Of a stretch of 26,544 bases of DNA, positions 45 through 23,300 are shown in pieces; the stretch's first letter is position 1, and every line of letters begins with the position of its first letter. The translations under genes and the position numbers were made by a program. The stretch is taken from positions 1 through 26,544 of IMG/VR virus record IMGVR_UViG_3300030419_004657; one strand, written 5' to 3'. Under the pieces are notes generated by a model, which made no database searches, was not told where the DNA came from, and saw nothing but the letters and a program-made list of their open reading frames with translations. This stretch comes from a virus.

Positions 45-575
45 ATGATATTAATACTTGAAGGCATTGATTGCGCGGGTAAAACTTGGATGGCTGAAAG
101 ACTATTAAAAGAATTACCAAATACTTATTTAATTAAGCATGGTAATAGGCCTACTGAAGACACTCCTGCTGCATCTTTCACACTATATAAAAACTATAAA
201 GCAATGTTAGATACTTATCAGTTTGCTATTAAACCGGCAGGAGGCACCCTAATTTTGGATAGATTTTATATGTCTGAATTAGTTTATGGGCCAATTACTA
301 GAAGATGTAATCTATTAACTCCGGACTACGAAAAAGAGCTAGAAGGCAGGATAAAAGAATTCCCTCATTTATATGTTGAAATTACTGCAAGCCGTGACCA
401 GATTATTGAGCGCATGAAAACAAGAGGTGAATTTTATTTAAAGGTTGAACACCTTGACAGTATTATGGAAGAATATGCCGAATTCTATGACGGCACTAAA
501 TTAAATAGAGCAAGAATAAAATCAGGAGAATCGAGTATTGATTTTCTAAAAAATGAAAGGCTAAAAGATGTTTAA
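45..575 (+). CDS. P-loop deoxynucleoside monophosphate kinase (thymidylate kinase-like)
   Basis: A 176-residue cytoplasmic P-loop kinase. Residues 7-14 (GIDCAGKT) are a Walker A loop at the very N-terminus. An Asp-Arg pair at 72-73 followed by a Ser and a Tyr (LDRFYMSELVYG) matches the DR(Y/F)..S motif of thymidylate kinases. Arg-rich residues around 114-132 fit the LID. At 176 residues it is slightly shorter than bacterial Tmk (about 205-215). The expected reaction is dNMP plus ATP to dNDP. The start at 45 has GAGGAG six bases upstream. It opens a row of nucleotide-metabolism genes beside two thymidylate-synthase/hydroxymethylase homologues, so it could phosphorylate a modified dNMP, as T4 gp1 does for hydroxymethyl-dCMP. 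That substrate is inference. The alternative is ordinary dTMP kinase or deoxynucleoside kinase activity. Confidence 0.8.
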   Translation: MILILEGIDCAGKTWMAERLLKELPNTYLIKHGNRPTEDTPAASFTLYKNYKAMLDTYQFAIKPAGGTLILDRFYMSELVYGPITRRCNLLTPDYEKELEGRIKEFPHLYVEITASRDQIIERMKTRGEFYLKVEHLDSIMEEYAEFYDGTKLNRARIKSGESSIDFLKNERLKDV

Positions 576-729
576 TTATATTAATAGTTGGAAAAGTCGT
601 AAATCAGAGAAATGGAATATTGAATTTCGTTTAGGAAGACTTACACTATTGCAACTTCACTACGATGCAAAACAAAATAAATTTAGATTTATGTTGTTAA
701 ATATCGGATTTGAAATTGGAGGAAAATAA
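568..729 (+). CDS. Small hypothetical protein, 53 aa
   Basis: ATG at 568, stop TAA at 727-729. It overlaps the kinase gene by 8 bases and has AAAGG at 556-560 as ribosome binding site. The product begins MFNYINSWKS and is basic and aromatic-rich, with alternating hydrophobic residues in its C-terminal half that suggest beta strands. There is no signal peptide or membrane segment. The tight overlap on both sides and the good ribosome binding site are the main reasons to believe it. I do not recognise the family. Confidence 0.55.
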   Translation: MFNYINSWKSRKSEKWNIEFRLGRLTLLQLHYDAKQNKFRFMLLNIGFEIGGK

Positions 730-887
730 TGGGTAAGAAACAGAAAATGTTTTATGATCTTAATGATAAAGTAAATAAAGCTATTTATAATAAAGGTTAT
801 AGAGCTGGCTTTAAAGCAGGAAAGAAAATAGGCGCAGTTGGCTGGTTCTCTTGTTTTAAAAAATATATTAATTGGACGAGGAAATAG
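729..887 (+). CDS. Small basic hypothetical protein, 52 aa
   Basis: The ATG at 729 overlaps the preceding stop codon by one base (TAATG), with GGAGGA at 717-723 as Shine-Dalgarno. The stop TAG at 885-887 lies one base before the dUTPase start. The product begins MGKKQKMFYD and is rich in Lys, Arg, Gly and aromatic residues (for example YRAGFKAGKK around residues 24-33). A short region near residues 35-41 is mildly hydrophobic but too short for a membrane segment. It may bind nucleic acid given its charge, but that is only a guess. Family not recognised. Confidence 0.5.
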   Translation: MGKKQKMFYDLNDKVNKAIYNKGYRAGFKAGKKIGAVGWFSCFKKYINWTRK

Positions 888-888
888 T

Positions 889-1311
889 ATGCTAGAATTT
901 AAAAAATTACACCCGGATGCTATTATACCAACAAGAGCTCATAATTCTGATGCAGGGATGGATGTATATAGTGTTGAAGATATACGTATTCCAGCAAGAG
1001 GGGATATATTAACAGGTTTGGGGTTAGCTTCTAAATTTCCAAATGGACATGCTTTATTAGTATATAATAAATCAGGTAGAGCAACCAAACTTAAATTAGA
1101 TAAAGGCGCAGAAGTAATTGACGCAGGTTATAGAGGTGAAATACATGTTCACTTGTTTAATCATTCTGATGTGAATGTTGTAATTAAAAAAGGGGAAAAA
1201 ATTGCACAGCTAATTTTAGTACCAATTTGGGCAGGCCAACCTATTGAAGTTGATGAACTTGATGATACTGAAAGAGGCGATGGTGGCTTTGGAAGCTCAG
1301 GCATAAAATAA
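889..1311 (+). CDS. dut: dUTPase (dUTP diphosphatase, trimeric family)
   Basis: Hydrolyses dUTP to dUMP and pyrophosphate, keeping uracil out of DNA and supplying dUMP. All five motifs of the trimeric dUTPase family are present in the 140-residue product: DAGMDV (21-26), NKSGRA (60-65), VIDAGYRGEI (76-85), KGEKIAQLI (101-109) and the C-terminal glycine-rich RGDGGFGSSG (129-138). I chose the ATG at 889, with GAGGAA at 878-883 upstream, over an in-frame TTG at 838, because 889 directly follows the previous stop and gives the usual family length. It sits with a dCMP deaminase gene further along and a uracil-DNA glycosylase domain in the polymerase, so the phage appears to police uracil closely. 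Confidence 0.93.
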   Translation: MLEFKKLHPDAIIPTRAHNSDAGMDVYSVEDIRIPARGDILTGLGLASKFPNGHALLVYNKSGRATKLKLDKGAEVIDAGYRGEIHVHLFNHSDVNVVIKKGEKIAQLILVPIWAGQPIEVDELDDTERGDGGFGSSGIK

Positions 1312-2079
1312 ATGTTTGTCCAAGTTACAGGCAAAAACATGTCTGAACTTTGGTTCAACCTTTTAGTACATACTGCCACAGGCAATCAACATTCTTATTA
1401 TTATCCTACTATGTATTCTCGAAGAGTATATGGTTTTACGGAAGGAATACATTTTGATGATACGATTATAGAAAAAGATTTCTATAAGTATTCAGGATAT
1501 AATAAAGATATGAAACTTAATAGACTTAGAGAGAGTTATTTTGGCCCAAAGGTTGAAAAACAATATGATTTATTAGTTTCCCAAATTAGACAATTACAAC
1601 CAAGACAGGCTAGAGGATTAATTAGTTTTTCTGAGCCAGCTTTTAATAGAACTGATAGACTTAAATGTTTAGACAGTTTATATATACAAAAGTCAACTAT
1701 GACTGAATATGAAGCTTTGATTGTATTTAGAAATACAGAAATATGGCCAAAGACTTATATGGATTTTGAATTTTTAAATGAAATGTTAGAAGGATTTGTA
1801 GAACAACGAGTTAGATGTACTTTATTTTCATGCTTTATGACCTCGTCATTTATAAATATGCACCAGGCTCCAACTGCCGCAATGATGATGAGGAAATATG
1901 GTATTAGAGACTGGAACTCATCATTTAAAGAAATGCTTCTGAGATTTAAAGACAAATTCGGTGATCCTTCTTGTTTAGAGACTGTTAAAATGCAATGGAT
2001 TAAAAGAGTATTAACAAGAACATATAGACTGTTTGAAGAAGACGGTGTTGATATTGATATGTTGATAGAAGGTAAATAA
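1312..2079 (+). CDS. Diverged thymidylate-synthase-fold protein (putative pyrimidine hydroxymethylase paralogue A)
   Basis: A 255-residue protein. Residues 85-165 follow the core of thymidylate synthase. Cys119 (LKC) lies where the catalytic Cys is expected. It is followed 21 residues later by Arg140 (FRNTEIW), matching the phosphate-binding Arg166 of E. coli ThyA, with Glu143 at the Asp169 position. Asp151 then falls exactly at the Asn177 position, the residue that separates dUMP from dCMP recognition. His184 (INMHQ) is a reasonable match to His207, but the following Tyr is lost. The N-terminal 80 residues and C-terminal 70 residues are not recognisable. It resembles the second homologue at 3839 more than any host-type ThyA. 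It could be an active hydroxymethylase, an inactive partner subunit, or an enzyme acting on a related nucleotide. The start at 1312 abuts the dUTPase stop; Met10 is an alternative. Confidence 0.55.
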   Translation: MFVQVTGKNMSELWFNLLVHTATGNQHSYYYPTMYSRRVYGFTEGIHFDDTIIEKDFYKYSGYNKDMKLNRLRESYFGPKVEKQYDLLVSQIRQLQPRQARGLISFSEPAFNRTDRLKCLDSLYIQKSTMTEYEALIVFRNTEIWPKTYMDFEFLNEMLEGFVEQRVRCTLFSCFMTSSFINMHQAPTAAMMMRKYGIRDWNSSFKEMLLRFKDKFGDPSCLETVKMQWIKRVLTRTYRLFEEDGVDIDMLIEGK

Positions 2080-3095
2080 TGGAAAAATTTGCTATTTCAA
2101 CTTTAACTTCTAGAAATAAAATTGGCTTTCTAACTGATTTAGTAAATAGTATGGAAGGTTTACCTAAATTTCCTTGGTACATTTATTCTAATGGTAGTGA
2201 TGAAAAACAAGAACAATTTTTAAAATCCCCATTTATTACTAACCGCTGTATAGTAAAATTTGGCCAGGAAAATAAAGGTGTAGGCTATGGGATTAATCAA
2301 GCTGCAGAAATGGTAAAGCATTATAAATACACTTTATTTATAGAAGATGATTGGTATCATTTGCCCGTTGGGCTCACAGGCTACAAAATTAGTTGGCTCT
2401 ATGATTGTATAGACTATTTAGATGAAAACCCTGATGTTGATGGAATTGTCTTAAGGAAATATATTTGGAGGTCAGAGGTCTCTATGCACAATCACCATTT
2501 GGCTTTTAATTCTGAAACTGATAAGATTATTAAATACCAAGGAATACAAATCATCACTACTAATTTTGATTATGCTAACAGTCCCCACATTAGAAGGAAT
2601 AAATCTTGTTATGAAAAAGGTATTTTTCCACAAATAGAACACCCGGAAGAAACTAAACCTGTTGGAGCTAATTGGGCGGGTAATATACCTGATAAAATAG
2701 CCGGTCATTTTGGTAGTGAAGGTCAAGCGGTCCAAAAGGGAAAAGAAAATGGTTTAAAATTTGTTGGATTATTAAATGGGATTTTTACTCATGAATATGA
2801 TAGTAAAAAATGGAAAAATAAAGATTTAGGCTGTGGTGAATATTCAGTAGGGGAATCTACTTGTAAATATGGCTTTTTTGATAGAGAAGATGTCTTTTGT
2901 CAAGTATGTTCTAATAAAGAAGATTTAACTTATTATAAAGAGCATTTTGAGCGGTTTTACCAGCTATTAGATCTATATGATAACAATAAACAAAATGCTA
3001 TCAGTTATATCCGCTCAAAGATTAAAGAAGAGGATAGTACTATGGATCTAAAGTTTGAACATTCACATTTTACAACAAAAAAGAGGGGCGTATGA
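2079..3095 (+). CDS. GT-A fold (GT2-like) glycosyltransferase
   Basis: A 338-residue putative glycosyltransferase. The N-terminal part shows GT-A features: a strand plus SNGSDE at 37-42, the NKGVGYGINQAAEM block at 65-78 typical of family 2 enzymes, and FIEDDW at 87-92 as the metal and nucleotide-sugar binding acidic motif. The C-terminal half contains several Cys residues (for example CQVC) and many aromatics and is not recognised. There is no membrane segment, so it should act in the cytoplasm. It lies between two thymidylate-synthase-fold genes and next to an Nmad1-like gene, with a one-base overlap upstream and ATGA overlap downstream. That suggests a sugar is moved to a hydroxymethylated base or nucleotide, but a virion or cell-surface target cannot be excluded. 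Confidence 0.65.
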   Translation: MEKFAISTLTSRNKIGFLTDLVNSMEGLPKFPWYIYSNGSDEKQEQFLKSPFITNRCIVKFGQENKGVGYGINQAAEMVKHYKYTLFIEDDWYHLPVGLTGYKISWLYDCIDYLDENPDVDGIVLRKYIWRSEVSMHNHHLAFNSETDKIIKYQGIQIITTNFDYANSPHIRRNKSCYEKGIFPQIEHPEETKPVGANWAGNIPDKIAGHFGSEGQAVQKGKENGLKFVGLLNGIFTHEYDSKKWKNKDLGCGEYSVGESTCKYGFFDREDVFCQVCSNKEDLTYYKEHFERFYQLLDLYDNNKQNAISYIRSKIKEEDSTMDLKFEHSHFTTKKRGV

Positions 3096-3433
3096 AAGAG
3101 TATGAGAAAGTAGCAAAAGAAATCGGCAAGTTAGTTGCTGAAAAAAACAAAGCTTATGGAGACTCATTTGGACAAGCACATCGAATTTTAAAGGTATTAT
3201 ATCCTAATGGTATTAAGCCTGATGGTTATATGGATTTTTTAACTATAACACGAATTATCGATAAGTTGTTTAGATTAGCTAATGAAAAGGAGGCTTTTGA
3301 GGAGAGCCCTTGGCGAGATATTGCAGGTTATGCTATATTAGGGGCTGCAAATGATGAGGCAATATTAACAGAAGAAGATGGTGACTCAGATATGAGTTAC
3401 GATATAAAAGGAAAGGCAGAAACAAATGACTAG
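3092..3433 (+). CDS. DUF1599 / Nmad1-like (nucleotide modification associated domain 1) protein
   Basis: A 113-residue, largely helical protein. The pattern of an N-terminal helix, then KNKAYGDSF (residues 18-26), an RIIDKLFRLAN helix around 54-64, an acidic patch and DIAGYAILGA around 75-84 matches my recollection of the DUF1599/Nmad1 family. That family was proposed from gene neighbourhoods to take part in nucleotide or base modification and often travels with thymidylate-synthase-like enzymes. Its biochemical role is not firmly known. Residues 88-113 form a charged, probably flexible tail. It overlaps the glycosyltransferase gene by ATGA and the nuclease gene by 8 bases, inside the putative modification cassette. 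A search against PF07659 would settle the assignment. Confidence 0.6.
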   Translation: MKEYEKVAKEIGKLVAEKNKAYGDSFGQAHRILKVLYPNGIKPDGYMDFLTITRIIDKLFRLANEKEAFEESPWRDIAGYAILGAANDEAILTEEDGDSDMSYDIKGKAETND

Positions 3434-3803
3434 ATATTTTTATCAAGCAAAATTATTAAGAGTTGTAGATGGTGACACTATTGATGCTCTTATTGATGTG
3501 GGATTTGATATTTGGGTAAAGAAGCGTATCCGCTATATGGGGCTGGATACTTGGGAATCTCGAACAAGAGATTTAGAAGAAAAGAAAAAAGGCTTAGCAG
3601 CAAAAGCTAGAAATAAAGAATTACTTGAAGGTAATGATAGTAAATTTTTAGTTCAAAGTCATGGATTAGGTAAATATGGAAGACTTTTAGGTGAAGTATT
3701 TATTGGTGATGATGATGCTCCAATGAGTGTTAACCAAATCTTAATCCAAGAAGGCCACGCTTATGTATATGATGGCGGTACCAAGAAAGTTTTTGGTGGA
3801 TAA
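3426..3803 (+). CDS. Micrococcal (SNase-type) nuclease
   Basis: A 125-residue thermonuclease-fold protein. VVDGDT (13-18) matches the first active-site strand. Arg36, Asp41, Thr42 and Glu44 in RYMGLDTWE line up with Arg35, Asp40, Thr41 and Glu43 of staphylococcal nuclease, and Arg86 in KYGRLLGEV lines up with Arg87. All catalytic residues are therefore present, and the expected activity is calcium-dependent phosphodiester cleavage of DNA or RNA. There is no signal peptide, so it should act inside the infected cell or be packaged. Host DNA breakdown for nucleotide salvage is a plausible role, with modified phage DNA perhaps protected; that part is inference. It is slightly shorter than secreted homologues. 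Confidence 0.85.
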   Translation: MTRYFYQAKLLRVVDGDTIDALIDVGFDIWVKKRIRYMGLDTWESRTRDLEEKKKGLAAKARNKELLEGNDSKFLVQSHGLGKYGRLLGEVFIGDDDAPMSVNQILIQEGHAYVYDGGTKKVFGG

Positions 3804-3838
3804 TCATATATTAATTAATAACTAATCACGGAGAATTA

Positions 3839-4573
3839 ATGACGAAACCTGTACACGAGTGTATTGAAGAAGCTGTTTTAGACTTATATAAAAATGGCAA
3901 CGAAGTAAAACCTCTTAAATGGCAATCAACTGAAGTTGAGTACCCAATGATTGAGGTAACTCAACGTTTTTATCAAATGAAAATGCCAAGTAATATAACT
4001 ATACTTCAAAGTCAAACAAAAGCTGACCAGCCTTGGGCAGAAGACCACTTTCAAGAACGTGTATCAGGAGAACCATTAAACCCAGGTAATCAATATTATA
4101 ATTGGCCTTATTATGATCACGGTAAAGATAATGACCGTTTTCGTGAAGGAGATAAACAATTTAGCCATTCTTATATGGAAAGATATTGGCCCCCTCGTGA
4201 TTTAAAAGGTATACGTTATAATTATGGTGATTTAGATCATCTTATTGAGCGTATGAAAAAAGATCCATTAACTAGACAAGCTTATCTTTCGGTATGGTAT
4301 CCGGAAGACCAAGTTGATGTTGGAGAAAGAGTACCATGCACATTGGGATATCATTTTATGATACGAGATAACAGGTTACACTGTACTTATCTAATTCGTA
4401 GTTGTGATATACGTAGACATTTTAAAAATGATATTTATATGACAATTAGATTAGCTCAATGGGTACAGGATAAGCTTGAAATGGATTTACAAATGGGTGA
4501 TTTAAATATGTGGATTGGTTCTCTACATGCTTGGGCCTTCGAAAGAAACATGTTAAAGAACGGTACTGTTTAA
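3839..4573 (+). CDS. Thymidylate synthase family enzyme, putative dCMP/dUMP hydroxymethylase (paralogue B)
   Basis: A 244-residue member of the thymidylate synthase/pyrimidine hydroxymethylase family. VPCTLGYHF holds the catalytic Cys167. Exactly 20 residues on, as in E. coli ThyA, comes IRSCD with Arg187, Ser188 and Asp190 (Arg166, Ser167, Asp169). Asp198 falls on the Asn177 position, and an Asp there is the signature of dCMP-using enzymes such as T4 gp42. DLQMGDLNMWIGSLHAW aligns without gaps to the ThyA segment ending HLY, giving His230 for His207 and Trp232 for Tyr209. The likely reaction is transfer of a one-carbon unit from methylene-tetrahydrofolate to C5 of dCMP, leaving hydroxymethyl. 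A gap of 35 bases with GGAG precedes the start. The gene overlaps the methyltransferase start by one base. Confidence 0.8.
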   Translation: MTKPVHECIEEAVLDLYKNGNEVKPLKWQSTEVEYPMIEVTQRFYQMKMPSNITILQSQTKADQPWAEDHFQERVSGEPLNPGNQYYNWPYYDHGKDNDRFREGDKQFSHSYMERYWPPRDLKGIRYNYGDLDHLIERMKKDPLTRQAYLSVWYPEDQVDVGERVPCTLGYHFMIRDNRLHCTYLIRSCDIRRHFKNDIYMTIRLAQWVQDKLEMDLQMGDLNMWIGSLHAWAFERNMLKNGTV

Positions 4574-5541
4574 TGAACGCAGGAGGAATATATGGTGGTA
4601 TTGGTGGTGCCTTATTAGGAGCTCAATGGGCCGGATTTGATATTAAATTTAATATTGAACCTCGACCTTTTTTTAATACTGAGACCTTTAAACATAATTT
4701 TGAGAAAGCTAATTTTACTCAATCATTTGAAAAGCATACAGATTTAACAGGTAAGAATATTCAATTAATAATTGGTTCGCCCGATTGTAAACAGTTTAGT
4801 AATTTAGGTACTAAAAGAAAAGACAAAGGTAAATTACATGAGTTAGACCCTTTTGATTTTGATTATGTAAAATTTTTAAGGGCTATGAATATTATAGAAC
4901 CAGACTGTTTTATTTTAGAAAATGTACCGCAGATTTTAAAGACTTTATGGTTTGAAGAAAATAAATTGAAATTTAAAGGTAGTGAAGAAGCTATTTATCT
5001 TTTACCAAAATATGATATCCAAACTATTATATTAAATGCTAAAGATTTTGGAGTACCCCAGAGCCGTAAAAGGGCTTTTATAATTGGTAGTAAAAAATTT
5101 AAACCAGAATTTAGTTTTGAGGCTTTAGAGAAAATGGGATTTGTAGACTTAATTAGAGAACACTATAAAGGAAAAATATTAAAAGATGTTTTAAACATTC
5201 CAGAAGGTGTAGCAAACAATAAGCCGCCAAGACATTCTGTTAAAAGGGTTGAAGGTTTCTCTAAATTAAAAATTGGAGAATCTTATTATGGTACTCAGAA
5301 CAATTTAAGATTAGATCCCAATAAACATTCAGGGACTATTGCTTCTCATTGTTCACGTTTTGTTCACCCCTCTGAAAGTAGAGTTTTAACGGCAAGAGAG
5401 AATGCTAGAATTATGGGATTTCCCGATGATTTCATCTTTTATGGAAATGAATCTGGGCAATTAGACCAAATTGGAAAATCTATTGTCCCCCAAGTATCAA
5501 TGGGAATTGCTTATTATATTAAAGAGATGCTAAATGGCTAA
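4573..5541 (+). CDS. DNA (cytosine-5-)methyltransferase
   Basis: A 322-residue C5-cytosine methyltransferase that should transfer a methyl group from S-adenosylmethionine to cytosine in a specific DNA site. Motif I is GGIYGGIGGALLG (4-16). Motif IV is GSPDCKQFS with catalytic Cys72 (the family norm is PPC or PC, so PDC is unusual). Motif VI is ENV at 116-118, motif VIII QSRKRAF, motif IX TARENARIMGFPDDF and motif X GQLDQIGKSIVPQ. A target-recognition region of modest size lies between VIII and IX. The start at 4573, overlapping the hydroxymethylase stop by one base, places motif I at the usual distance; an upstream in-frame ATG at 4510 would add 21 unmatched residues. No restriction enzyme gene is visible, so it looks like a solitary phage methyltransferase, probably for evading host restriction. 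Confidence 0.92.
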   Translation: MNAGGIYGGIGGALLGAQWAGFDIKFNIEPRPFFNTETFKHNFEKANFTQSFEKHTDLTGKNIQLIIGSPDCKQFSNLGTKRKDKGKLHELDPFDFDYVKFLRAMNIIEPDCFILENVPQILKTLWFEENKLKFKGSEEAIYLLPKYDIQTIILNAKDFGVPQSRKRAFIIGSKKFKPEFSFEALEKMGFVDLIREHYKGKILKDVLNIPEGVANNKPPRHSVKRVEGFSKLKIGESYYGTQNNLRLDPNKHSGTIASHCSRFVHPSESRVLTARENARIMGFPDDFIFYGNESGQLDQIGKSIVPQVSMGIAYYIKEMLNG

Positions 5542-7189
5542 ACACGACTCAACAGAATTATTTGCTTTAGTACGTATTGAAGACGTAATTAAAGATTATT
5601 TACCAATTCAAAAAATTGGAGAGAACTATAGATGTAAATGTCCGTTTCACCATGATGCTGACCCGTCATTAGTCATATCTCCGAAATTAGGCATTTTTAA
5701 ATGCTTTGGTTCCGGTTGTGGTGAAACGGGCAATGCCGCTTCTTTTATATCAAAGTTTGATGATATACCTTACCCATTAGCTTTAGCAAAATTAGCAGAA
5801 AAAATTGGTAGGCCAGATCTTGCACCAAAGGCCAAAGGTAAACAGTTTACTAGTGTTCTAGAAATAAATGAAATGGCTTTAAGTCTTTATTCAAAAGCCT
5901 TATTTACTAAAGATGATTTAAGTGCTAATGCTAGAATGGCTCTTAGGGAACGAAGAATTACTCAAGAGACCGCTAAACTATTTCAATTAGGATATTCACC
6001 TAATTCATGGACTTGGTTAGTGGATCAGCACTTAGATAATGAATTACTTGAGAAAGCTAACTTAATATTAAAGACTGAAGCGGGCCACTATCGTGATTAT
6101 TTTAAAAATAGAATAATCTTTCCAATCTTTCATCAAAAGAAATTAATTGGATTTACAGGTCGTACTTTGGGAGTATCTCAAAAGATTCCTAAATATTTAA
6201 ATTCTAGAGACAGTGATTGGTTTAAAAAATCTCAATTATTATATGGGTGGGCTCAAAATGCACAACAAATAAGAAGACAGAAAGAGATTGTAATTACTGA
6301 AGGACAGTTTGATGTATTACAACTTCATCAAAGAGGTATTCAAAATGCTGTTGCAGTATCGGGTAGTTATTTTGGACCTGACCAAGCTAATTTATTTCAA
6401 AAAGCTGTAAAGAGAGCTACTATAATGAGCGATGGTGATAAGGCGGGTGTTGAAGCAGTTATTAGAATTGGAGAATTTTTAATTGAAAGAAATATAGACC
6501 CTCATATTATTCATGTTGAAGGTAAAGACCCTGATGATTTAGCACGATATAAACATAGGTTTGATTGGAAAAAACTTAATACTAAATATGGTTACAGTTT
6601 TGTAGAATTTTGTCATGAACAAAAGGGACTAGAATCTACTTTAAAAAGAATTTCTGGGCACCGTAATAAATTAAAACTTAGCCAGGATTTAAGACAATTA
6701 AGTGAACTATCAGGTTATGATGAAAAACATTTAGAACATTGGCTTATTCAATATAAGAAAGCTCCTATGCTAGAGATAGTTGATATTAATAAAGACCAGT
6801 TGAAATTAGAAGATGAGCTAATGTTATTATATGCTGTAAATGGGGTTGATGTTCCGATAAATGGATTTTTAAAGAAAAGATTAAATACTGAGTTAGTTAA
6901 TAATATTACAAATAAGCCTGATGGATTGGCTCAAGATCTAGCAAGAAATCAAAAATTTGCTACTAGATTATCTATACTTGATAATATTAAAGATAAAACA
7001 CAGTATGCTAAAGATTTGATTATTAAACTTAATTTGAAGTACATGAAAAAAGAAGTAAATCAAAATAAGCAAAAATACAAAGAAACTAATGATGCAAAGT
7101 ACTTAGAAAAAGTAGAGTCATTAGTTAAGAATATGAACAAAATGAAATTAAAGGTGAGAAATGGACAAAGTTATAGCTCTTCGATTTGA
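5534..7189 (+). CDS. dnaG: DnaG-type DNA primase
   Basis: A 551-residue primase that makes RNA primers at the replication fork. The N-terminal CHC2 zinc-binding domain has Cys36-Pro-Phe-His39 and Cys57/Cys62 (CFGSGC). The catalytic core follows, with FPIFHQKKLIGFTGR typical of the DnaG RNA-polymerase domain, and a TOPRIM fold with TEGQFDVLQLHQRG near residues 253-266 and MSDGDKAG near 298-305. Residues beyond about 400 are Lys-rich and helical, consistent with a helicase-interaction region, but no helicase is fused. It overlaps the methyltransferase gene by 8 bases. No DnaB-type helicase is seen in the window, so that partner is either elsewhere in the phage or supplied by the host. Confidence 0.92.
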   Translation: MAKHDSTELFALVRIEDVIKDYLPIQKIGENYRCKCPFHHDADPSLVISPKLGIFKCFGSGCGETGNAASFISKFDDIPYPLALAKLAEKIGRPDLAPKAKGKQFTSVLEINEMALSLYSKALFTKDDLSANARMALRERRITQETAKLFQLGYSPNSWTWLVDQHLDNELLEKANLILKTEAGHYRDYFKNRIIFPIFHQKKLIGFTGRTLGVSQKIPKYLNSRDSDWFKKSQLLYGWAQNAQQIRRQKEIVITEGQFDVLQLHQRGIQNAVAVSGSYFGPDQANLFQKAVKRATIMSDGDKAGVEAVIRIGEFLIERNIDPHIIHVEGKDPDDLARYKHRFDWKKLNTKYGYSFVEFCHEQKGLESTLKRISGHRNKLKLSQDLRQLSELSGYDEKHLEHWLIQYKKAPMLEIVDINKDQLKLEDELMLLYAVNGVDVPINGFLKKRLNTELVNNITNKPDGLAQDLARNQKFATRLSILDNIKDKTQYAKDLIIKLNLKYMKKEVNQNKQKYKETNDAKYLEKVESLVKNMNKMKLKVRNGQSYSSSI

Positions 7190-7346
7190 TAATATAAAAG
7201 AGATTTCAGTTGTTAAATCATTAATAGAGATTGGATTACAGGACCCAGAAATAAGCCCTGGTGAGGCTATTACTGGCAGAGAAATCATTAAACAATTAAA
7301 TAAATGCGCAACATTAATGCAAAAACAAAATGAGTCGGCTAAATAG
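7161..7346 (+). CDS. Small hypothetical protein, 61 aa
   Basis: ATG at 7161 overlaps the primase 3' end by 29 bases and is preceded by AAAGGTGAG. The product begins MDKVIALRFD and is acidic to neutral, predicted alpha/beta with a C-terminal helix around GREIIKQLNKCATLM. It overlaps the deaminase start by 17 bases. No membrane segment or known motif is visible. The position inside a continuous overlapping gene string and the ribosome binding site support it, but I do not recognise it. Confidence 0.55.
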   Translation: MDKVIALRFDNIKEISVVKSLIEIGLQDPEISPGEAITGREIIKQLNKCATLMQKQNESAK

Positions 7347-7761
7347 AAAAGAATATTTTATGTCTATAGCAGAACTTGCAGCTAAAAGGGGTACATGCCC
7401 TAGAGCTCAAGTAGGTTGTGTGTTAGTTGATGAAAGGAACCGAGTTAAAGCTACAGGCTATAATAGTAGTCATCCGGGTTCTTGTCATTGTGATGATCAC
7501 GGTTGTTTAGTTATTGGTGACCATTGTATTAGAACTATTCATGCTGAAGTAGCCGCAGTATTAAATCTAGAAAAACAATATAAGAATTTAACTGCTTTCG
7601 TAACTCATGAGCCTTGTATGAATTGCTATAAAGTAATAACTGCGGCAGGAGTCACTAAGATTTATTATAAAGAAGCTTATGGTAATCACCCCGAAGAGTA
7701 TTATGAATTACAAAATGAAATAGGTGTTGAAATGATAGAGTATAATAATGTCCCGTTTTAA
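7330..7761 (+). CDS. dCMP deaminase (zinc-dependent)
   Basis: A 143-residue cytidine/deoxycytidylate deaminase family enzyme that converts dCMP to dUMP. The zinc site is HAE (His71, Glu73 as proton shuttle) and PCMNC (Cys96, Cys99). The segment TCPRAQVGCVLV (22-33) and the Cys-rich loop before HAE (Cys52, Cys54, Cys59, Cys66, then IRTIHAE) are typical of phage and eukaryotic dCMP deaminases rather than of guanine or tRNA deaminases. It would feed dUMP to thymidylate synthesis. If one of the hydroxymethylase homologues uses dCMP, the two enzymes compete for the same pool. The start at 7330 overlaps the upstream small ORF. Confidence 0.9.
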   Translation: MSRLNRKEYFMSIAELAAKRGTCPRAQVGCVLVDERNRVKATGYNSSHPGSCHCDDHGCLVIGDHCIRTIHAEVAAVLNLEKQYKNLTAFVTHEPCMNCYKVITAAGVTKIYYKEAYGNHPEEYYELQNEIGVEMIEYNNVPF

Positions 7762-8032
7762 AATAAAAGAAATGATTGAGATGATTGATTTATCAATCCA
7801 GACTTTAGAAAATTTAAAAGAAGAACTTCAAAGTAATGAAAAGGATTTGCTTAAATTTTATAAAAGGGGTAGCAAAAGAGCTGGAGTAAGGGTAAGAAGA
7901 TTATTAAAAAGATTAATGGACAGCGCACAGACTGTTAGACTAGATATATACAGACTATACAAAGAAAGAGACATATTTAAAGGAACTGAATTTGACAAAG
8001 ATTACAAAAGAGATAAACCTTCCGCTGAGTAA
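7748..8032 (+). CDS. Histone H1-like (Hc1-like) basic protein
   Basis: A 94-residue, Lys/Arg-rich helical protein. The segment FYKRGSKRAGVRVRRLL (residues 37-53) followed by a second basic helix matches the pattern of the chlamydial Hc1 family (an acidic or neutral N-terminal helix, then K..K.AG.RVR and a second amphipathic helix). A shorter paralogue with the same core lies at 11550. Such proteins bind DNA in bacteria; in phages the role is unknown, perhaps DNA compaction or host nucleoid remodelling. It overlaps the deaminase gene by 14 bases and the polymerase gene by 41. Assignment is by pattern only. Confidence 0.5.
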   Translation: MSRFKIKEMIEMIDLSIQTLENLKEELQSNEKDLLKFYKRGSKRAGVRVRRLLKRLMDSAQTVRLDIYRLYKERDIFKGTEFDKDYKRDKPSAE

Positions 8033-10415
8033 TTGCGGTGAATGTACTTTATATGATGAAAAAGCATATCACCCTCATAATTACTGGGGCAATCTAAATC
8101 AACCCGATGTATTATTCATTGGTGAAGCACCTGGACAGGCAGAAAAAACGACAGGATTAGCTTTCCAAGGTAGAGCGGGTAAACTTCTACAAAAAACTTT
8201 AAAAGAAATTGGAATTGATAATTTTGCTATTGCTAATGTAGTTGCTTGCAGACCCGAAGGTTTAAATGCTTATGGTAAAGTAGTTGATAGAAAACCAACT
8301 TCTACAGAAATAAGACATTGTGGAGAAAATTTAGATGCGATTATTAATCATATCAAGCCAAGATATATTGTAGCTTTAGGTGCTACTGCTTGTTCAAGAT
8401 TAAAAGTAAAAGGGGGAATTACATCAGTTAGAGGAGTAATGTCTGAAACACCGTATGGTAAAGTATTACCAATCTTCCACCCTGCTTATATATTACGCTC
8501 ACCAAATTTTAAAGTTGAGTTTAAACAAGATTTGAATTTATTAAAGAATTTTATTGACGGGAAAGTTGATATTAAAAAACCGCAAGGTGATTATATAATT
8601 ATTGAAGATCCAACTGAAATGGAAGCTCTTGAGAAAGATATGGCTTCAAGAAAAGCTTTTGCTTTTGATATTGAAACGGATGGATTAAGATTTTATAAAG
8701 ATACTATTATGGGAATTGGATTTTGTAATCGGGTTGGTCAAGCTTATTACGTACCTCTTTACCAATCAGTTAGTAAAGATCCTTATTGGGGTGAGCACCA
8801 AGCGAGGGTGTTAGAATCTTTAAAAAGGATCATGACCAACCCGGTTAAGAAAATTGCCCATAATGGTAAATTTGATATTAAGTTTATAGACCATCAGTGG
8901 GGTATTCAAACTAAAAACTTTGCAGTTGATACAATGTTACTTCATTATATACTTGATGAAAACCGTCCACACGGTTTAAAAACATTGGCAGGTTTTTATT
9001 TTCCTGAAATGAAAGATTATGATAAGCATTTACGTCAAGCTCTAACTATTAAAGATTTTGATGAAGAAAGTTTTGGTAATGTTCCTGTTGAAGTTTTAGG
9101 GCCTTATTGTGCTATGGATTGTGAAACAACCTATAGACTGGCAAAGAAGTTAGTACCAGAACTTAAAGGTAAGTTAAAGAAATTATTTTATAATTTTTAT
9201 ATGCCCCTATCAAAAGTCTATCAAGCAAGTGAATTAGTTGGAGTTAAAATTGATGTACCTTATATCAAAAAGATTTATAAAGAGAATTCAGAAAAACTTA
9301 TTGAAGTTGAAGCTAAAGTCTATGAATTAGCTGGCCGGGAACTTAATGTAAATTCTCCTAAACAATTAAATGAAGTATTATTTGAGAAGTTAGGATATCC
9401 AGTTTTGTTAGAAACTGCTACAAAAAAACCGAGTACTTCAGAGCTTGCTTTAAAGCTTTTAATAAAGAAGCTTGGTAAGAAAGCTCCAATTATACCTCTT
9501 ATTCTTGAATTTAGAGGGTTGAAAAAAATGAACACCACATACCTAAAACCTATGTTAGAGAAAGTAGATGGTAATGACCGCATTCATCCATCCTTTCTCT
9601 TGCATGGGACCGTTACAGGGAGGGTTTCTTCTAAAGGGCCTAATATTCAAAATATCCCAAGAGACCCCCGAATTAAAGGAATGTTTATACCTGAAGAAGG
9701 TTATAGATTTGTAGAAATTGATTATTCTCAAGCTGAATTAAGAGTTATGGCTTATTATTCAAAAGATAAATTAATGACTGAACAATATATAAATAGACAA
9801 GATATTCATCTTGCTACAGCTTCTTTTATATTTATGAAAGAACCAAAGGATGTAACTAAAGATGAACGTAAAACAGCAAAGCTTGTTAACTTTGGTTATC
9901 TTTATGGAGCTACACCTCAAAAAGCACATTCAAGTATTAATGAAAGGGTAGCTGCTGAAAAAGAAGTAATTACATTAAGAGAAGCTAAAATATTTAGAGA
10001 AAAATTCTTTGCTAATTACTTTGGTATAAACCGGTTTATTCTAAATACACGCAGGAATATATTAAAAACGGGTGAAATCAAAAGTTGTTTTGGTAGAATA
10101 AGAAGATTACCACAAGTAGAAAGCCCCCTTGAAGAGAAAAAAGCTGAAGCTCAAAGACAAGGCTTAAATGCTCTAATTCAAGGGACGGCTTCAGACCTTA
10201 CACAGCTTGCACTGATAAGAGTACACAAATTTCTCTTACCTTATAAATCAAGGTTCTTATTTACAGTACATGACGCTATAGTACTTGAGATTCATAAGAC
10301 TGAAGAACATTTAATTGAAGAAATAAAAGAAATTATGGAACAAAAAGTTAAAGGGTTTGATTTTCCACTTGAAGCTGATGTTGACATATTTAATAACCGT
10401 TGGGGCAATGATTAA
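7992..10415 (+). CDS. polA: Uracil-DNA glycosylase (family 4)-DNA polymerase I fusion
   Basis: An 807-residue replicative polymerase with three parts. Residues 10-190 are a family-4 uracil-DNA glycosylase: iron-sulfur ligands Cys15, Cys18, Cys86 and Cys110, motif GEAPGQAEKTTG (44-55), GRAGKLL (60-66) and HPAYILRS (163-170). Residues 220-385 are a DEDDy 3'-5' exonuclease: DIE (226-228), AHNGKFDIKF (289-298) and YCAMDCETTY (372-381). Residues 400-807 are the PolA core: motif A DYSQAELRV (577-585), motif B RKTAKLVNFGYLYG (626-639, Phe634 at the E. coli Phe762 position) and motif C VHDAIVLE (759-766). There is no 5'-3' exonuclease domain. The start is TTG at 7992 with AAAGGA upstream; no in-frame ATG precedes the first Cys ligand. 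Confidence 0.93.
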   Translation: MTKITKEINLPLSNCGECTLYDEKAYHPHNYWGNLNQPDVLFIGEAPGQAEKTTGLAFQGRAGKLLQKTLKEIGIDNFAIANVVACRPEGLNAYGKVVDRKPTSTEIRHCGENLDAIINHIKPRYIVALGATACSRLKVKGGITSVRGVMSETPYGKVLPIFHPAYILRSPNFKVEFKQDLNLLKNFIDGKVDIKKPQGDYIIIEDPTEMEALEKDMASRKAFAFDIETDGLRFYKDTIMGIGFCNRVGQAYYVPLYQSVSKDPYWGEHQARVLESLKRIMTNPVKKIAHNGKFDIKFIDHQWGIQTKNFAVDTMLLHYILDENRPHGLKTLAGFYFPEMKDYDKHLRQALTIKDFDEESFGNVPVEVLGPYCAMDCETTYRLAKKLVPELKGKLKKLFYNFYMPLSKVYQASELVGVKIDVPYIKKIYKENSEKLIEVEAKVYELAGRELNVNSPKQLNEVLFEKLGYPVLLETATKKPSTSELALKLLIKKLGKKAPIIPLILEFRGLKKMNTTYLKPMLEKVDGNDRIHPSFLLHGTVTGRVSSKGPNIQNIPRDPRIKGMFIPEEGYRFVEIDYSQAELRVMAYYSKDKLMTEQYINRQDIHLATASFIFMKEPKDVTKDERKTAKLVNFGYLYGATPQKAHSSINERVAAEKEVITLREAKIFREKFFANYFGINRFILNTRRNILKTGEIKSCFGRIRRLPQVESPLEEKKAEAQRQGLNALIQGTASDLTQLALIRVHKFLLPYKSRFLFTVHDAIVLEIHKTEEHLIEEIKEIMEQKVKGFDFPLEADVDIFNNRWGND

Positions 10416-13733: not shown

Positions 13734-13990
13734 TGGATTCTAAAATCAAAAGTACACTTATTGATATGATGCTAATAGATTATAGTTTAAATACTTATCA
13801 AAAAGCATGTATTCAAAAAGTGATTGATGGTTGTGTTGACTTGGCTTCTTATCAAGCTGGTAAAAGCGGTTTACAGGAAAAAGATGTAGACACTATAGCT
13901 GACTTGATAAGAGGTCATATTATTAATATTTTAAACGTATTGGAAATAAAGAAAGATGGCAAAAGAAGATTTAAAGAAGCTCAGAGCTGA
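13733..13990 (+). CDS. Small hypothetical helical protein, 85 aa
   Basis: The ATG at 13733 overlaps the recombinase stop by one base (TAATGG), and the gene overlaps the next by 35 bases. The product begins MDSKIKSTLI, is almost entirely helical (MLIDYSLNTYQKACIQKVIDGC, LIRGHIINILNVLEI) and ends in a basic tail. There is no membrane segment, signal or known motif. A role beside the recombinase is suggested only by position. Confidence 0.6.
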   Translation: MDSKIKSTLIDMMLIDYSLNTYQKACIQKVIDGCVDLASYQAGKSGLQEKDVDTIADLIRGHIINILNVLEIKKDGKRRFKEAQS

Positions 13991-14936
13991 TAAACCTGTT
14001 GGGGACTATCCTTGGTGGGACGGCCAAGTTAAAGATGAAGTAAAATTACATATATCTTTACCTACTTATGATGGTAGTCTTAATTTGACACAGGATAGTG
14101 CTTTAAAATTTGCATTACAAAATTCTGTATTAAAAGATAAACTTAAAGTTGAATTTAATTTCTTATCAAATGATAGTTTAATTTGTAGAGCTAGAGATAA
14201 ATTAGCTTCTGCTTTTTTAGCTAGTGATTGTGAATGGCAATTACAGATTGATAGTGATATTATATTCCCTTATGGTATTGGCCATGATTTAGCTCAATAC
14301 TACGCAAACTGGATGGATGAAGAAACATTCAGCTTATTTTTAAATGAAGGTGTATTTAGACTTGCTTTAAATATGAATGCTATTGATGAAATACTTAGAA
14401 GTGGTATTCAAGATGGTAAGAAAGTTGTAGGGGGTTACTACTTCTGGAGAGGTGGTAATAAAAACTTTAATGAAGCTGGTTCATTATTCGACCCATTAAA
14501 TGAAGAGAAATGGGAAATAGAATATAAACTACGCCCGGATAATTATATTAAAACTGATAGACTTGCTACAGGGTTTTTATTAGTACACCGTTCAGTTTAT
14601 GAAGCTATGGATAAAAAATACCCAGAACTATCTTATAATTTACCGGCTATTATGCCAGGTAAAGATACAATGGCTTATTATACTCCAATGATTACTAATG
14701 ATAGTTATGAAGGTAAAGATGTTAGGTTTTACCGCTCAGAGGATTATGCTTTTGGCTATAGAGCTAAAGAATGTGGGTTTGACCCTTGTCTAAATATGAA
14801 TCTATTATTAGGCCATGAAGGTAACACTATTTATTCTTGGTTTGATAGACCAGTTTTACAAAAATTGATTTTATCAGAATTTAATAATCCCAGACATTTT
14901 ATACAAAAAACACCAGGTGATGATGATGCTAAATAA
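13956..14936 (+). CDS. GT-A fold glycosyltransferase (second in window)
   Basis: A 326-residue protein with the hallmarks of phage GT-A enzymes: HISLPTYDG (32-40), SLICRARDKLASAFLAS (74-90), then QIDSDIIFP with DSD at 99-101 as the metal-binding motif. TGFLLVHRSVYEAM comes at about 202-215 and SEDYAFGYRAKECGFDP at about 260-276, followed by a LGHEG segment. The SED and His motifs fit the C-terminal acceptor and metal region of such enzymes. There is no membrane segment. It lies between recombinase and SbcDC-type genes, far from the other glycosyltransferase. A base-modifying role is possible given the hydroxymethylase homologues, but a role in decorating virion proteins or host envelope is equally open. 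Confidence 0.75.
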   Translation: MAKEDLKKLRADKPVGDYPWWDGQVKDEVKLHISLPTYDGSLNLTQDSALKFALQNSVLKDKLKVEFNFLSNDSLICRARDKLASAFLASDCEWQLQIDSDIIFPYGIGHDLAQYYANWMDEETFSLFLNEGVFRLALNMNAIDEILRSGIQDGKKVVGGYYFWRGGNKNFNEAGSLFDPLNEEKWEIEYKLRPDNYIKTDRLATGFLLVHRSVYEAMDKKYPELSYNLPAIMPGKDTMAYYTPMITNDSYEGKDVRFYRSEDYAFGYRAKECGFDPCLNMNLLLGHEGNTIYSWFDRPVLQKLILSEFNNPRHFIQKTPGDDDAK

Positions 14937-20146: not shown

Positions 20147-20394
20147 TTCTTATCCTTTGCTTTATTTGAATGCTTGAACCAGAAATCAATTACTTTTCCA
20201 AACATTGCTATAAACCCACCTAATAATATATTCAATAAATCTCTATGAGTGTCATCTAATTCTAAAGTAGGATGGAATAATAAATATAATACCCAAGCAA
20301 ATAACGCAAACATCAGTAAACTGATAGTAAATTGCATCCAATCAGGTAATCCATCCCCTTGATGTATTACATCTCTATCTTTAATATTTTTCAT
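20143..20394 (-). CDS. Small two-helix membrane protein, possible holin
   Basis: An 83-residue protein with two predicted membrane helices: residues 20-41 (MQFTISLLMFALFAWVLYLL) and 53-73 (LLNILLGGFIAMFGKVIDFWF). A charged N-terminus (MKNIKDRDVIHQGDG) precedes them, an acidic loop (ELDDTHRD) separates them, and a Lys-rich tail (KHSNKAKDKK) follows. Size, topology and basic tail fit phage holins, which time lysis by making inner-membrane holes. No endolysin gene is visible nearby, so the role rests on topology alone. It overlaps the giant tail protein gene by 14 bases, with AGGAC upstream of the ATG. Confidence 0.6.
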   Translation of the reverse strand: MKNIKDRDVIHQGDGLPDWMQFTISLLMFALFAWVLYLLFHPTLELDDTHRDLLNILLGGFIAMFGKVIDFWFKHSNKAKDKK

Positions 20395-23300
20395 CTGTCC
20401 TAAATTTAACCGTAGTTTTCAATGCTTTAACATTGGTTGATATTTCTCTTAAATAACCTGATACTGAAAATTCTGATATTCCAGGGAACATAACTTCATC
20501 AATAATCTTTATTTTTCTCAATGCATTACCTGCTGGTACTGTAAAAGTTATTGTAGGATCAAAAGGTAAAGTAGCCTCAATAGCATACTTAGGATCTCCA
20601 TATTCTCTTAAATATTTTGAAGCCCAATATTCTGATTTATCATGTCTAATAAATCTATTATCTGGGAAGTTCCAATCTCTTTGACCATATTTAGCAATAG
20701 AGGTTGAATCTGCTGCTGTATAAATAGATCCTGAATCTTTTTCTAATCTAATTCCTTGGAATTTTAGATTAATAATATCTTTAGCATTAAATTTATCAGA
20801 AGTACTATCACATTTCCAAGACCAAGTCCCTAAACCTTCTGGTAGATCTTGTTGTAGAGAAGAATAAGGAGGAGGTTGTATAGCTCCATCTTCTGTTTGC
20901 AATATTAATGTGGCAGGAGCCATAGCATAATGAGCATTTAAAGTATCCCCCACTACAAAAGATGGATAAGTACCATTTAAATAAATATAAGCATTTTCTT
21001 CATCTATTGCTTTTATCCAAGCAGTCGGTCCTGAACTAAATATGCTAGTAGCAGCATTTGTTGTAGCTGTAGGTGAAGCACTATCTGCTTGGTCGGGTAA
21101 AGTTACGGTTTGTAGTTGTGATGTAGAAAGTGTAGTAACCAAGAATGAATAATGTTTATAGCTTTCTGGTGAATAAGAGGTAATCCTAGCACTAGCAAAA
21201 GGTCTAATATTATTTACTGTTAAACGAGTAACTGGCGTCCAAGTATGACCTGCACTTTCACAAGTAGATTTATCATTATAATGAGAATAGTTTCCTGCAG
21301 AACAAACCCCGTGGGAAGTATTTACATCATCTACTGCTGTAATCACTGTTACTCCTTCATCAGAATATCTTATACCATAATTTTTAACATTGGAACTTCC
21401 ATCACTATTAAGGTCACTTCCCGCATGGGCTGAAACAACGTTTATTGGAGTACCTGCTAATACTTCAAAACCTGGAGTAGATTCTAAGCTTAATTTATTT
21501 TTAGAAGTATCAACATCTGTTATGACTCTTCCTATTTGTTCATAGGTTGTAGGATTAGTAAATATTACTATTTCCCCTTTTTTAATAACTCTTTTTCCAC
21601 TAGCAAATAATGTATTTACATATACTGCAGCATCTGTAGTAGACATTTCTTTCATTACTACAACTTGTTTTGTTGGAGAGTGAGTTCTCCATTTAAATAA
21701 AGGTATTAATAGTCTACTACCTATATTAGTTATAGAATCTACTGCATTAGCTGTTGCTTCTGTTTCACTATCTTTAGTTAGTCTTCCCCCTCTAGTACAT
21801 ATTAAATTTACTGAAGCTTCTCTATGAGTTCTTGGAGTAATAGTAAATTCCCCATTAAATAATTGTTCATCAGTTAATACTTCTTCTCCTCCCACGTGTG
21901 TTACTTCCCACTCAATATCTTTAACCTGTGGTCTAAAAGGTTGAATAGAAATAACATTTCTAATATCATTATCAATGCCTTTTTTAATATCAATAACATC
22001 TCCATCAAGAGCATTTAAAGTGTGAGTGTTTGATTTCGAATCACGATTAATTAAGAAAAACTGTTCAACATCAAAACCAAATACCATATTGTTTGCTGTT
22101 GCCAATTTAGCTATAGCATCAAACCCTTTTAATCCTGTATAATCAGCAAGTTGTATTCTAGGATCAACTTCTCTATCATCAACTTTAAACCAGTGTTTAA
22201 TAGAGCCAAAAGCAAATTTAGATTTAGCTTTTTGAGAAGTCTGATACCAACCTCTATAATCATCAAATGCTGTAAATAGTGCTTCTCTTTCATTATCATT
22301 ACCTTTATCAACTAATCCCGTTACTACTTGACCGTGACCAATCATACCTTCATTACCATATAATTTTTTAGTAGTTGCAGGAGCTAAATCATCAATAAAA
22401 TTCCCCGCATTGAATGAACCTGCTGAAGCTGAATATAAATAATTTACTTTAATTCCAATCCCTATATTATCTCTAGTTGTAGAAGGAGATGGTGAAGCTT
22501 TTTGAATTCTGAAATATACGATACCATTATTAGTACCTATGTTTAAATCTGAAGCCCCAAACTTCCCTTGAGTATTAGTAAAACCTGTAAACCCTACTGC
22601 ATCATAACTTGTCCCATTTTGAATATCGTGATCTAAAACTTTTAAAGCATTACTTGTGCCTGCCCATACAAAAACTTCATGACAAGGTTCATAAGGACTA
22701 GAATCATTATATTCGGCTAATATAGAATCCCTTTTAAAACAAGTCCCAAATACTCCATTAGTACCATTGGTATTAGTACTCATATCACTGCTATAATGTA
22801 AGGTTAAGAATTTTCTAGTTTTATTATTAGCATTCCCTGCTGCATAATTAGCAAATCTTCCACTATCAGCACTGCCGTCCATATCTCCATTATAAACTGA
22901 AGCATCACTGGCTGAATCATAAATCTTTGTAGTACTAACAGAACCGGCAGAAAAACTACCTGTACCTAAAGCTACCCTATAAATATAACTACGGTTTAAA
23001 ATATCATCTTCATTAGATCCCGTGTATAAAGCACTGTGTGTTCTACTTTCATGAGTTGCAATATAAATATTACCTGATTCTCCACTACAAGCAGCAGTAC
23101 CATAAATTGGAACTACAGTATAACTGTGAGGTGTTACTGCTGATACACTTCGTGTAACAGGTGCAACATTTGTTGCTGTAATATCTGCAAGTGTTTTATC
23201 TTCACATTTATAAGAAGTCCATTTTAAATTGAAGTGGCCAGGGTTACTGGCTGTTGCGTCTGGATCCCAACGAAATCTTGAACCATCTGCAGGAGCAGTA

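Follow-up and report, generated by a model that had tools for sequence, protein, structure and literature searches.

A compact gene set of a marine phage predicted to make an altered, sugar-decorated DNA base

Genes of the run

The virus record IMGVR_UViG_3300030419_004657 provided the window analysed here, a 26,544-base piece of a tailed-phage-like genome, in which a tightly packed run of same-strand genes at positions 45-7761 is our subject. Its genes make it very probable that this compact set, which belongs to a marine phage, serves to produce a modified DNA base bearing sugar. At its centre are two unstudied thymidylate-synthase-like enzymes and an uncommon cytosine methyltransferase, which depart from the classical T4 pathway. 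A sequence-only reading had described the run as a candidate DNA hypermodification cassette with mostly short overlaps between genes; its open reading frame (ORF) coordinates and arrangement were confirmed, and family scans likewise bore out the dNMP kinase, dUTPase, C5-methyltransferase and dCMP deaminase named there. Inside the run but absent from that list are a staphylococcal-nuclease-like (SNase-like) protein (3426-3803) and a DnaG primase (5534-7189). The features are given below, with TS denoting thymidylate synthase.

45-575, + strand: P-loop dNMP (thymidylate-like) kinase (PF02223, 1.1e-6; phrog_761, 4.5e-23)
889-1311, + strand: trimeric dUTPase (PF00692, 1.5e-29; 70-90% identity in relatives)
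1312-2079, + strand: TS1, putative divergent TS-fold protein of family X (Y76, C119, R140 and D151 invariant)
2079-3095, + strand: GT-A type glycosyltransferase in a variable slot (PF00535, 0.0022, below cut-off)
3092-3433, + strand: small conserved protein (phrog_1485; weak DUF6378)
3426-3803, + strand: SNase-like protein (PF00565, 3.9e-10; phrog_452, 4e-38)
3839-4573, + strand: TS2, dCMP-type TS-superfamily enzyme (PF00303, 1.3e-9; phrog_160, 1.2e-27)
4573-5541, + strand: C5-cytosine methyltransferase homologue (PF00145, 1.1e-40; SPDC motif IV, K302)
5534-7189, + strand: DnaG-type primase, a replication gene embedded in the cassette (PF08275, 2.5e-28)
7330-7761, + strand: dCMP deaminase (PF00383, 1.9e-21; phrog_174, 2.4e-39; HAE and PCxxC motifs by eye)
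7992-10415, + strand: fusion of uracil-DNA glycosylase (UDG), 3'-5' exonuclease and DNA polymerase A (PF03167, 1.8e-27; PF01612, 2.5e-27; PF00476, 1e-97)
13956-14936, + strand: second GT-A-like protein, conserved (phrog_1574)

Thymidylate synthase-like proteins and their loci

The structural model of TS2 is good (pLDDT 88, pTM 0.89) and reveals a TS fold, for which AfhB (Z 19.4, root-mean-square deviation (rmsd) 2.5, 196 residues aligned), MilA (Z 19.0, rmsd 2.6, 217 aligned) and thymidylate synthases are tied matches. The key residues of TS2 are C167, R187, D190 and D198, accompanied by the non-canonical H70, H110, R164, R193 and H194. C167 and the cytosine-selecting D198 are present in 45/45 TS2 sequences and align with C148 and D179 of T4 gp42. 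A dCMP-selecting Asp is shared by T4 gp42, all 45 TS2 sequences, all 29 TS1/X sequences and the TS3 proteins that were read, which are encoded by a third TS-like gene lying upstream in five of six relative records searched (the sixth starts past that point). E. coli ThyA keeps Asn at the base-selecting position, as do the SPO1 and Vi01 enzymes, in which the loop is one residue longer. The passages of PMC6400193 that deal with this Asp give it the base-selecting role, and the sequence comparison makes dCMP-type recognition by TS2 likely.

The same structural study of T4 dCMP hydroxymethylase (dCH) describes a hydroxymethylation signature consisting of Asp or Glu three positions before the Cys together with Ser-x-Tyr, and names Glu60 as conserved (PMC6400193). 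TS2 lacks this signature: R164 stands three before the Cys in 45/45 sequences, where T4 has Asp145; His110-x-Tyr112 takes the place of T4 Ser94-x-Tyr96 in 45/45, so that Ser/Thr-x-Tyr is not found; and the catalytic Glu (T4 E60, E. coli E58) aligns with H70 by sequence in 44/45. Moreover, E. coli TS L143, L172 and G173, the last two lying near the folate, correspond to TS2 R164, R193 (44/45) and H194 (43/45). On this signature we rejected the reading of both TS-like proteins as plain T4 hydroxymethylases, and since TS2 is without the published signature, hydroxymethylcytosine is only one possible product, with 5-hydroxycytosine or another base also possible. TS2 also matches TS models, the best being the archaeal-type TIGR03283 (6e-16, under its cut-off). 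It is nearly confined to phages: a pattern scan found it in 6 of 84,980 species genomes, at least one of these six being a contig of the same phage group. Among phage records, 104 have a TS2 match spanning 80% of the query or more.

TS1 gave no Pfam match and no PHROG match, and as a plain tblastn query against phages it yielded no relatives. It is linked to family X, a family lying directly upstream of TS2 in cultured phages, by profile comparison (hhalign probability 57%, E 1.1e-4), and a hidden Markov model begun from X alone picks up TS1 at E<1e-3 in the second and third search rounds. Only four columns, Y76, C119, R140 and D151, are invariant across 29 TS1/X sequences; by order and spacing we equate them with E. 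coli TS Tyr94, Cys146, Arg166 and Asn177, and the Arg-to-Asp spacing of 11 is the same as in E. coli ThyA and T4. The AlphaFold model of TS1 is weak (pLDDT 64), with TS structures dominating the listed matches (best Foldseek E 8.5e-3); AfhB (9iqu) is the top VIA-align match of this weak model (Z 9.7, rmsd 3.9, 169 aligned) and the second by Foldseek. A profile search of the PDB with family X returned weak unrelated matches only. Profile iteration, the low-confidence fold and the four invariant positions thus support indirectly the placement of TS1 in the TS superfamily. Of the two hydroxymethylase-like proteins proposed earlier, TS2 is upheld by family scans as a TS-family protein, while TS1, matching no family model, has this indirect support.

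In cultured phages with TS2 homologues, X is an unassigned gene immediately preceding TS2. A kinase gene comes first in these phages, then one for a dUTPase or NTP pyrophosphatase, then X and TS2, followed in most cases by dCMP deaminase and then by PolA, with small variations. The X-TS2 pair is present in Muddy, Gordonia phages such as GTE2, Serratia phages (Serbin, Opt-155) and Pseudomonas phages (PMBT14), among others. As tblastn queries for X, Muddy gp47 matched 85 phage records and the Yersinia P744 protein matched 18, counts that are not paired one to one with the 104 TS2 records. Among those listed, the X genes are mostly annotated "hypothetical protein" and the TS2 genes "thymidylate synthase"; two phages carrying both also have an annotated ThyX. 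A literature search of limited scope found no paper on the pair.

We surveyed 90 TS2 loci: the best 80 of 579 viral-contig matches, supplemented by further viral loci, by loci from phage records and by that of the window. Near copies occur among them. Family X was found at 42 loci and an asparagine (Asn)-synthase-like amidotransferase at 31 (L060-L065, L068-L070 and L104 among others), never both, while 17 had neither; several of the latter end at a contig edge, and at least one, Zuko (L042), is an ORF-caller miss. The ORF caller also lost TS2 in L049 and L050. Wherever X was found it lies upstream of TS2 on the same strand (42/42, 15 of them within 150 bases). In a TS2 tree of 77 rows, which left out short and identical rows and in which L042, L049 and L050 were labelled X by hand, the Asn-synthase label needs four changes and sits in at least two separate places. 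X and the amidotransferase may therefore be mutual substitutes, a hint only, since clade structure explains part of the exclusivity. Four marine phage loci (L106, L108, L115 and L124) have TS2 without X, Asn-synthase or C5-methyltransferase in the stretch examined, and in L106 TS2 adjoins a ribonucleotide reductase.

The C5-methyltransferase and the exchangeable genes

The best start of the C5-methyltransferase is the ATG at 4573, not the GTG at 4510. The enzyme is not ordinary, judged by its residues: motif IV reads SPDC, and K302 falls in the column of HhaI N304. Across the TS2 loci, P[DE]C replaces PPC in 23/23 C5-methyltransferase genes detected, and Lys stands at the HhaI Asn304 place in 22/22 of those covering that residue. 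The genes come from four settings: the window group, a set with Asn-synthase (L062-L065 and L123), L093/L118, and L100. Four control phage methyltransferases, picked by similarity and not belonging to TS2 loci, keep PPC, and their residues at that column are N, N, M and N (five were fetched; L139 was cut and left out). To our knowledge, Asn is near-universal in C5-methyltransferase motif X. A literature search of limited scope found no paper on P[DE]C/Lys C5-methyltransferases, and this non-canonical group can be used to recognise, by sequence, a DNA-modifying activity not described so far.

The closest parallel at this residue is the CmoX/CmoA/CmoY system for 5-carboxymethylcytosine in Synechococcus phage S-B43, where Arg350 of the carboxymethyltransferase CmoX occupies the HhaI Asn304 place and holds Cx-SAM by its carboxyl group; an enzyme engineered from Asn to Lys can likewise use Cx-SAM (PMC12783734). 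Window K302 equals chain index 351 of 8yf3 if 67-residue stretches align gap-free, one off the Arg350 number given in that paper. Both systems therefore share a basic residue at this place, and AsnB-like ligases occur in the sister set of TS2 loci (31/90). The window differs in having Lys for Arg350 and P[DE]C for SPPC, and no AsnB-like gene was found in window-group loci among the 90 surveyed; we accordingly rejected membership in CmoX as published. CmoA (TIGR00740) was found in 0/12 records, some of which could be incomplete genomes; Cx-SAM might also come from a CmoA of the host. By analogy a carboxylated donor is possible for the window enzyme. We do not take the Lys as proof of one, since its role may just be to pair with the acidic residue next to the Cys.

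The comparison of gene order covered 15 group contigs and two outgroups. Twelve viral contigs encode TS1 at 75-97% identity, and the kinase homologue stands in the same place in relatives that reach it. The cassette consists of a fixed core with exchangeable tailoring genes at fixed places. The TS1-TS2 slot is empty beyond the 3092 and SNase genes in 8 of the 12 group contigs covering it (L002, L004, L006, L008, L009, G003, G005 and G006). In L011 the only additions are two short ORFs, of 49 and 108 aa. The slot of G004 holds a 2OG-Fe(II) oxygenase together with a cellulase-like protein (PF12876), that of G002 a cellulase-like protein together with a TylF-like O-methyltransferase, and the 69-kb contig G001 is without the 3092 and SNase genes. 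Elsewhere, a GT25 gene lies between deaminase and PolA in G004 and L035, a 2OG oxygenase between kinase and dUTPase in G002, and a methyltransferase gene before the C5-methyltransferase in L009. G001 carries a sulfotransferase-like gene (galactose-3-O-sulfotransferase-like) before TS1 and a CMP-sugar-synthetase-type gene before TS3, while in L125 TS1 is flanked by a GT2-like gene upstream and a TylF-like gene downstream. The PF12876 "cellulase-like" proteins inside this DNA-modification slot are strong matches (E about 1e-75; L034:7509-8507, L012:9706-10683). L125 (NZDU01000008.1) is a contig of the window phage group binned with a Candidatus Pacearchaeota metagenome-assembled genome; it is probably mis-binned, an archaeal host being possible.

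The glycosyltransferase at 2079-3095 is missing from 12/12 contigs covering the interval and is therefore not core, so it was rejected as a core part of the cassette. The earlier assignment to the GT-A type stands to the extent of a GT2 match below the curated cut-off (E 0.0022, 18.4 bits against 23.3) and motifs seen by eye, including a DxD-like FIEDDW; no PDB match and no relatives in the phage or viral collections searched were found. The candidate core glycosyltransferase is instead the gene at 13956-14936, found in all three relatives whose contigs reach that far (59-86% identity) and distantly matched in 45 phage records, of which 43 belong to Synechococcus phages; a PDB search gave no match. 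The 3092-3433 protein had been called Nmad1-like, which was not borne out: the Nmad1 Pfam model has no match at E<=10 in 8/8 members, and we rejected this identity on the Pfam scan. DUF6378 is matched in 3/8 members, at 0.012 in the best case.

Cassette model and rival explanations

A conserved, phage-specific cassette that combines Asp-bearing TS-like enzymes, a kinase, a C5-methyltransferase and exchangeable sugar enzymes is best read as serving DNA hypermodification. Specifically, we put at about two in three the probability of a two-level cassette aimed at cytosine, its chemistry being predicted from the genes. At the nucleotide level, TS2, with TS1 as partner or second step, would alter dCMP at C5 through a Cys-C6 adduct; the kinase would take the modified dNMP product up the triphosphate route; dUTPase, deaminase and the UDG-polymerase would exclude uracil and steer pools; and the polymerase would incorporate the modified base. 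At the DNA level, the non-canonical C5-methyltransferase-like enzyme and one or two glycosyltransferases would decorate the base, a decoration that gene swaps in the variable slots may alter. The basis of this reading is gene identities, synteny, residue conservation and variable slots. In its favour, relatives preserve the order of the core genes and vary the tailoring genes at set positions, X precedes TS2 at 42/42 loci, the dCMP-selecting Asp is present, the C5-methyltransferases of TS2 loci are of the Lys type, sugar genes lie in or next to the slots, and TS2 is nearly confined to phages. Several points weigh against it: the window glycosyltransferase is an orphan and sub-threshold, the TS1-TS2 slot is empty in 8/12 covering relatives, a C5-methyltransferase makes little sense if all cytosines are already C5-substituted, and the TS2 loci without X, Asn-synthase or C5-methyltransferase, including the one beside ribonucleotide reductase, also fit plain nucleotide metabolism.

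The pool genes bear on the extent of modification. As had been noted before, no dCTPase is visible; MazG (PF03819) and dUTPase_2 (PF08761) were not found in the window and six relative records, which may be fragments, the dUTPase_2 control having matched only 1/14 genomes. Because no dCTPase was found and the C5-methyltransferase is kept, partial replacement of cytosine is likelier than complete, and replacement is probably partial. The UDG-PolA fusion together with dUTPase suggests that uracil is kept out of the phage DNA, and the nearest cultured polymerases to the fusion include those of phages with the X-TS2 pair. The dCMP deaminase follows TS2 directly or a few genes on in most X-TS2 phages examined; no annotated deaminase was found near TS2 in Muddy, Strzyga and MW202455.

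The sequence-only reading had proposed a T4-style route through hydroxymethyl-dCMP. Its DNA hypermodification cassette is supported, while the route itself is weakened by the missing hydroxymethylase signature, a glycosyltransferase that is not core, the lack of an Nmad1 match and the non-ordinary C5-methyltransferase. The likeness to T4 (gp42, gp56, alpha/beta-glucosyltransferases) is nevertheless broad: a TS-superfamily enzyme with the dCMP-selecting Asp, a nucleotide kinase, glycosyltransferases and a dCMP deaminase. That TS2 and/or TS1 is a folate-dependent dCMP hydroxymethylase, with hydroxymethylcytosine (hmC) then glycosylated in DNA, we consider unlikely, though the strongest of the alternatives. 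TS2 has a TS fold with Z about 19 to AfhB, MilA and TS alike, carries Cys, Arg and Asp at the T4 C148/R168/D179 places, and has a kinase and a glycosyltransferase-like gene nearby; R164, His110-x-Tyr112 and the aligned His70, at the frequencies given above, argue otherwise, as does the lack of a dCTPase in the window and six relatives. The window further departs from T4 in its additional TS-fold family X, the C5-methyltransferase and other replication genes. Even the thymidine-hypermodification enzymes of SPO1 and Vi01 retain Asp at -3 along with the uracil-type Asn, unlike those of the window (the comparison covers SPO1 and Vi01, not M6); SPO1, Vi01 and M6 resemble it in having a TS-like enzyme beside PolA and a kinase. 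Next in rank, and doubtful, is a TS1 or TS2 working like the flavin-dependent AfhB / 5-hodCMP synthase of arabinosylating phages (arabinosyl-5-hydroxycytosine; RB69-like, NP), which would place a glycan directly on the C5 oxygen. This enzyme class belongs to the TS superfamily (PMC13390438) and acts on dCMP by a route other than hydroxymethylation, as the window enzymes may do. AfhB is the best fold match, being the top VIA match of both models (Z 19.4 and 9.7), and the replacement of E. coli TS L143, L172 and G173 by R164, R193 and H194 in TS2 fits such an enzyme. The AfhB lead for TS2 is, however, within tie range and the TS1 model is poor; the AfhB stretch compared differs around the Cys, with Glu at -3, and has Asn for D169; no flavin enzyme was identified, and no arabinose gene set was recognised in the window.

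A reading as ordinary metabolism, in which TS2 and TS1 only help make dTMP while glycosyltransferase and methyltransferases act elsewhere (surface sugars, plain 5-methylcytosine), appears improbable. Kinase, dUTPase, deaminase and TS form a standard dTMP set, and the TIGR03283 match and the ribonucleotide reductase neighbour in L106 agree with it, but the Asp that all three TS-like proteins have where the base is selected, the ThyX already annotated in two X-TS2 phages, and the confinement of the Lys-type C5-methyltransferase to TS2 loci in a small sample do not. We regard as least probable a detour in which TS2 makes 5-substituted dCMP that the deaminase converts to 5-substituted dUMP; the base incorporated would then be a thymine analogue, leaving the C5 of cytosine free for the C5-methyltransferase. 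Phage deaminases can deaminate 5-substituted dCMP, the gene sits after TS2 in most X-TS2 phages, and the coexistence of the C5-methyltransferase would be accounted for; on the other hand, phages commonly use dCMP deaminase to supply dUMP, the three phages named above have no annotated deaminase there, and known thymidine-hypermodification partners were not found among the families scanned.

Within the favoured cytosine-directed cassette, a more specific chemistry can be proposed, which we hold to be distinctly doubtful, between the 5-hydroxycytosine route and ordinary metabolism in likelihood. TS2, with TS1/X, would have given up the hydroxymethylases' way of using folate, conserved His and Arg residues having remodelled its pocket. 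The P[DE]C/Lys "C5-methyltransferase" linked to it would be no methylase and would act through the same kind of Cys-C6 adduct on the TS2-made C5-substituted cytosine in DNA (or with a carboxylated donor), installing a handle extended by swappable glycosyl-, sulfo- and O-methyltransferases. If true, cytosine would have a third modification pathway in addition to T4 hmC and 5-hydroxycytosine, with its nucleotide-level part in more than 100 cultured phage records. If X-TS2 makes a modified cytosine, altered DNA would be present in many cultured phages, with effects on restriction, CRISPR targeting, sequencing and phage engineering.

Beyond the run, family scans place a RecA-like protein and SbcCD-like proteins downstream of the UDG-exonuclease-PolA fusion. 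A small protein at 7748-8032 matches histone H1-like Hc1 (PF07432, 5.4e-9) and adjoins the polymerase in relatives too. Upstream of the cassette, in a region beyond the window, TS3 has as neighbours in L019 a protein with sigma-70 region 2 (L019:9730-10353) and a DnaB helicase (L019:7354-8682). On the opposite strand of the window, 20381-26077 (-) encodes an 1898-aa protein that has no Pfam, PHROG or PDB match and has an 1801-aa homologue (44%) in G001.

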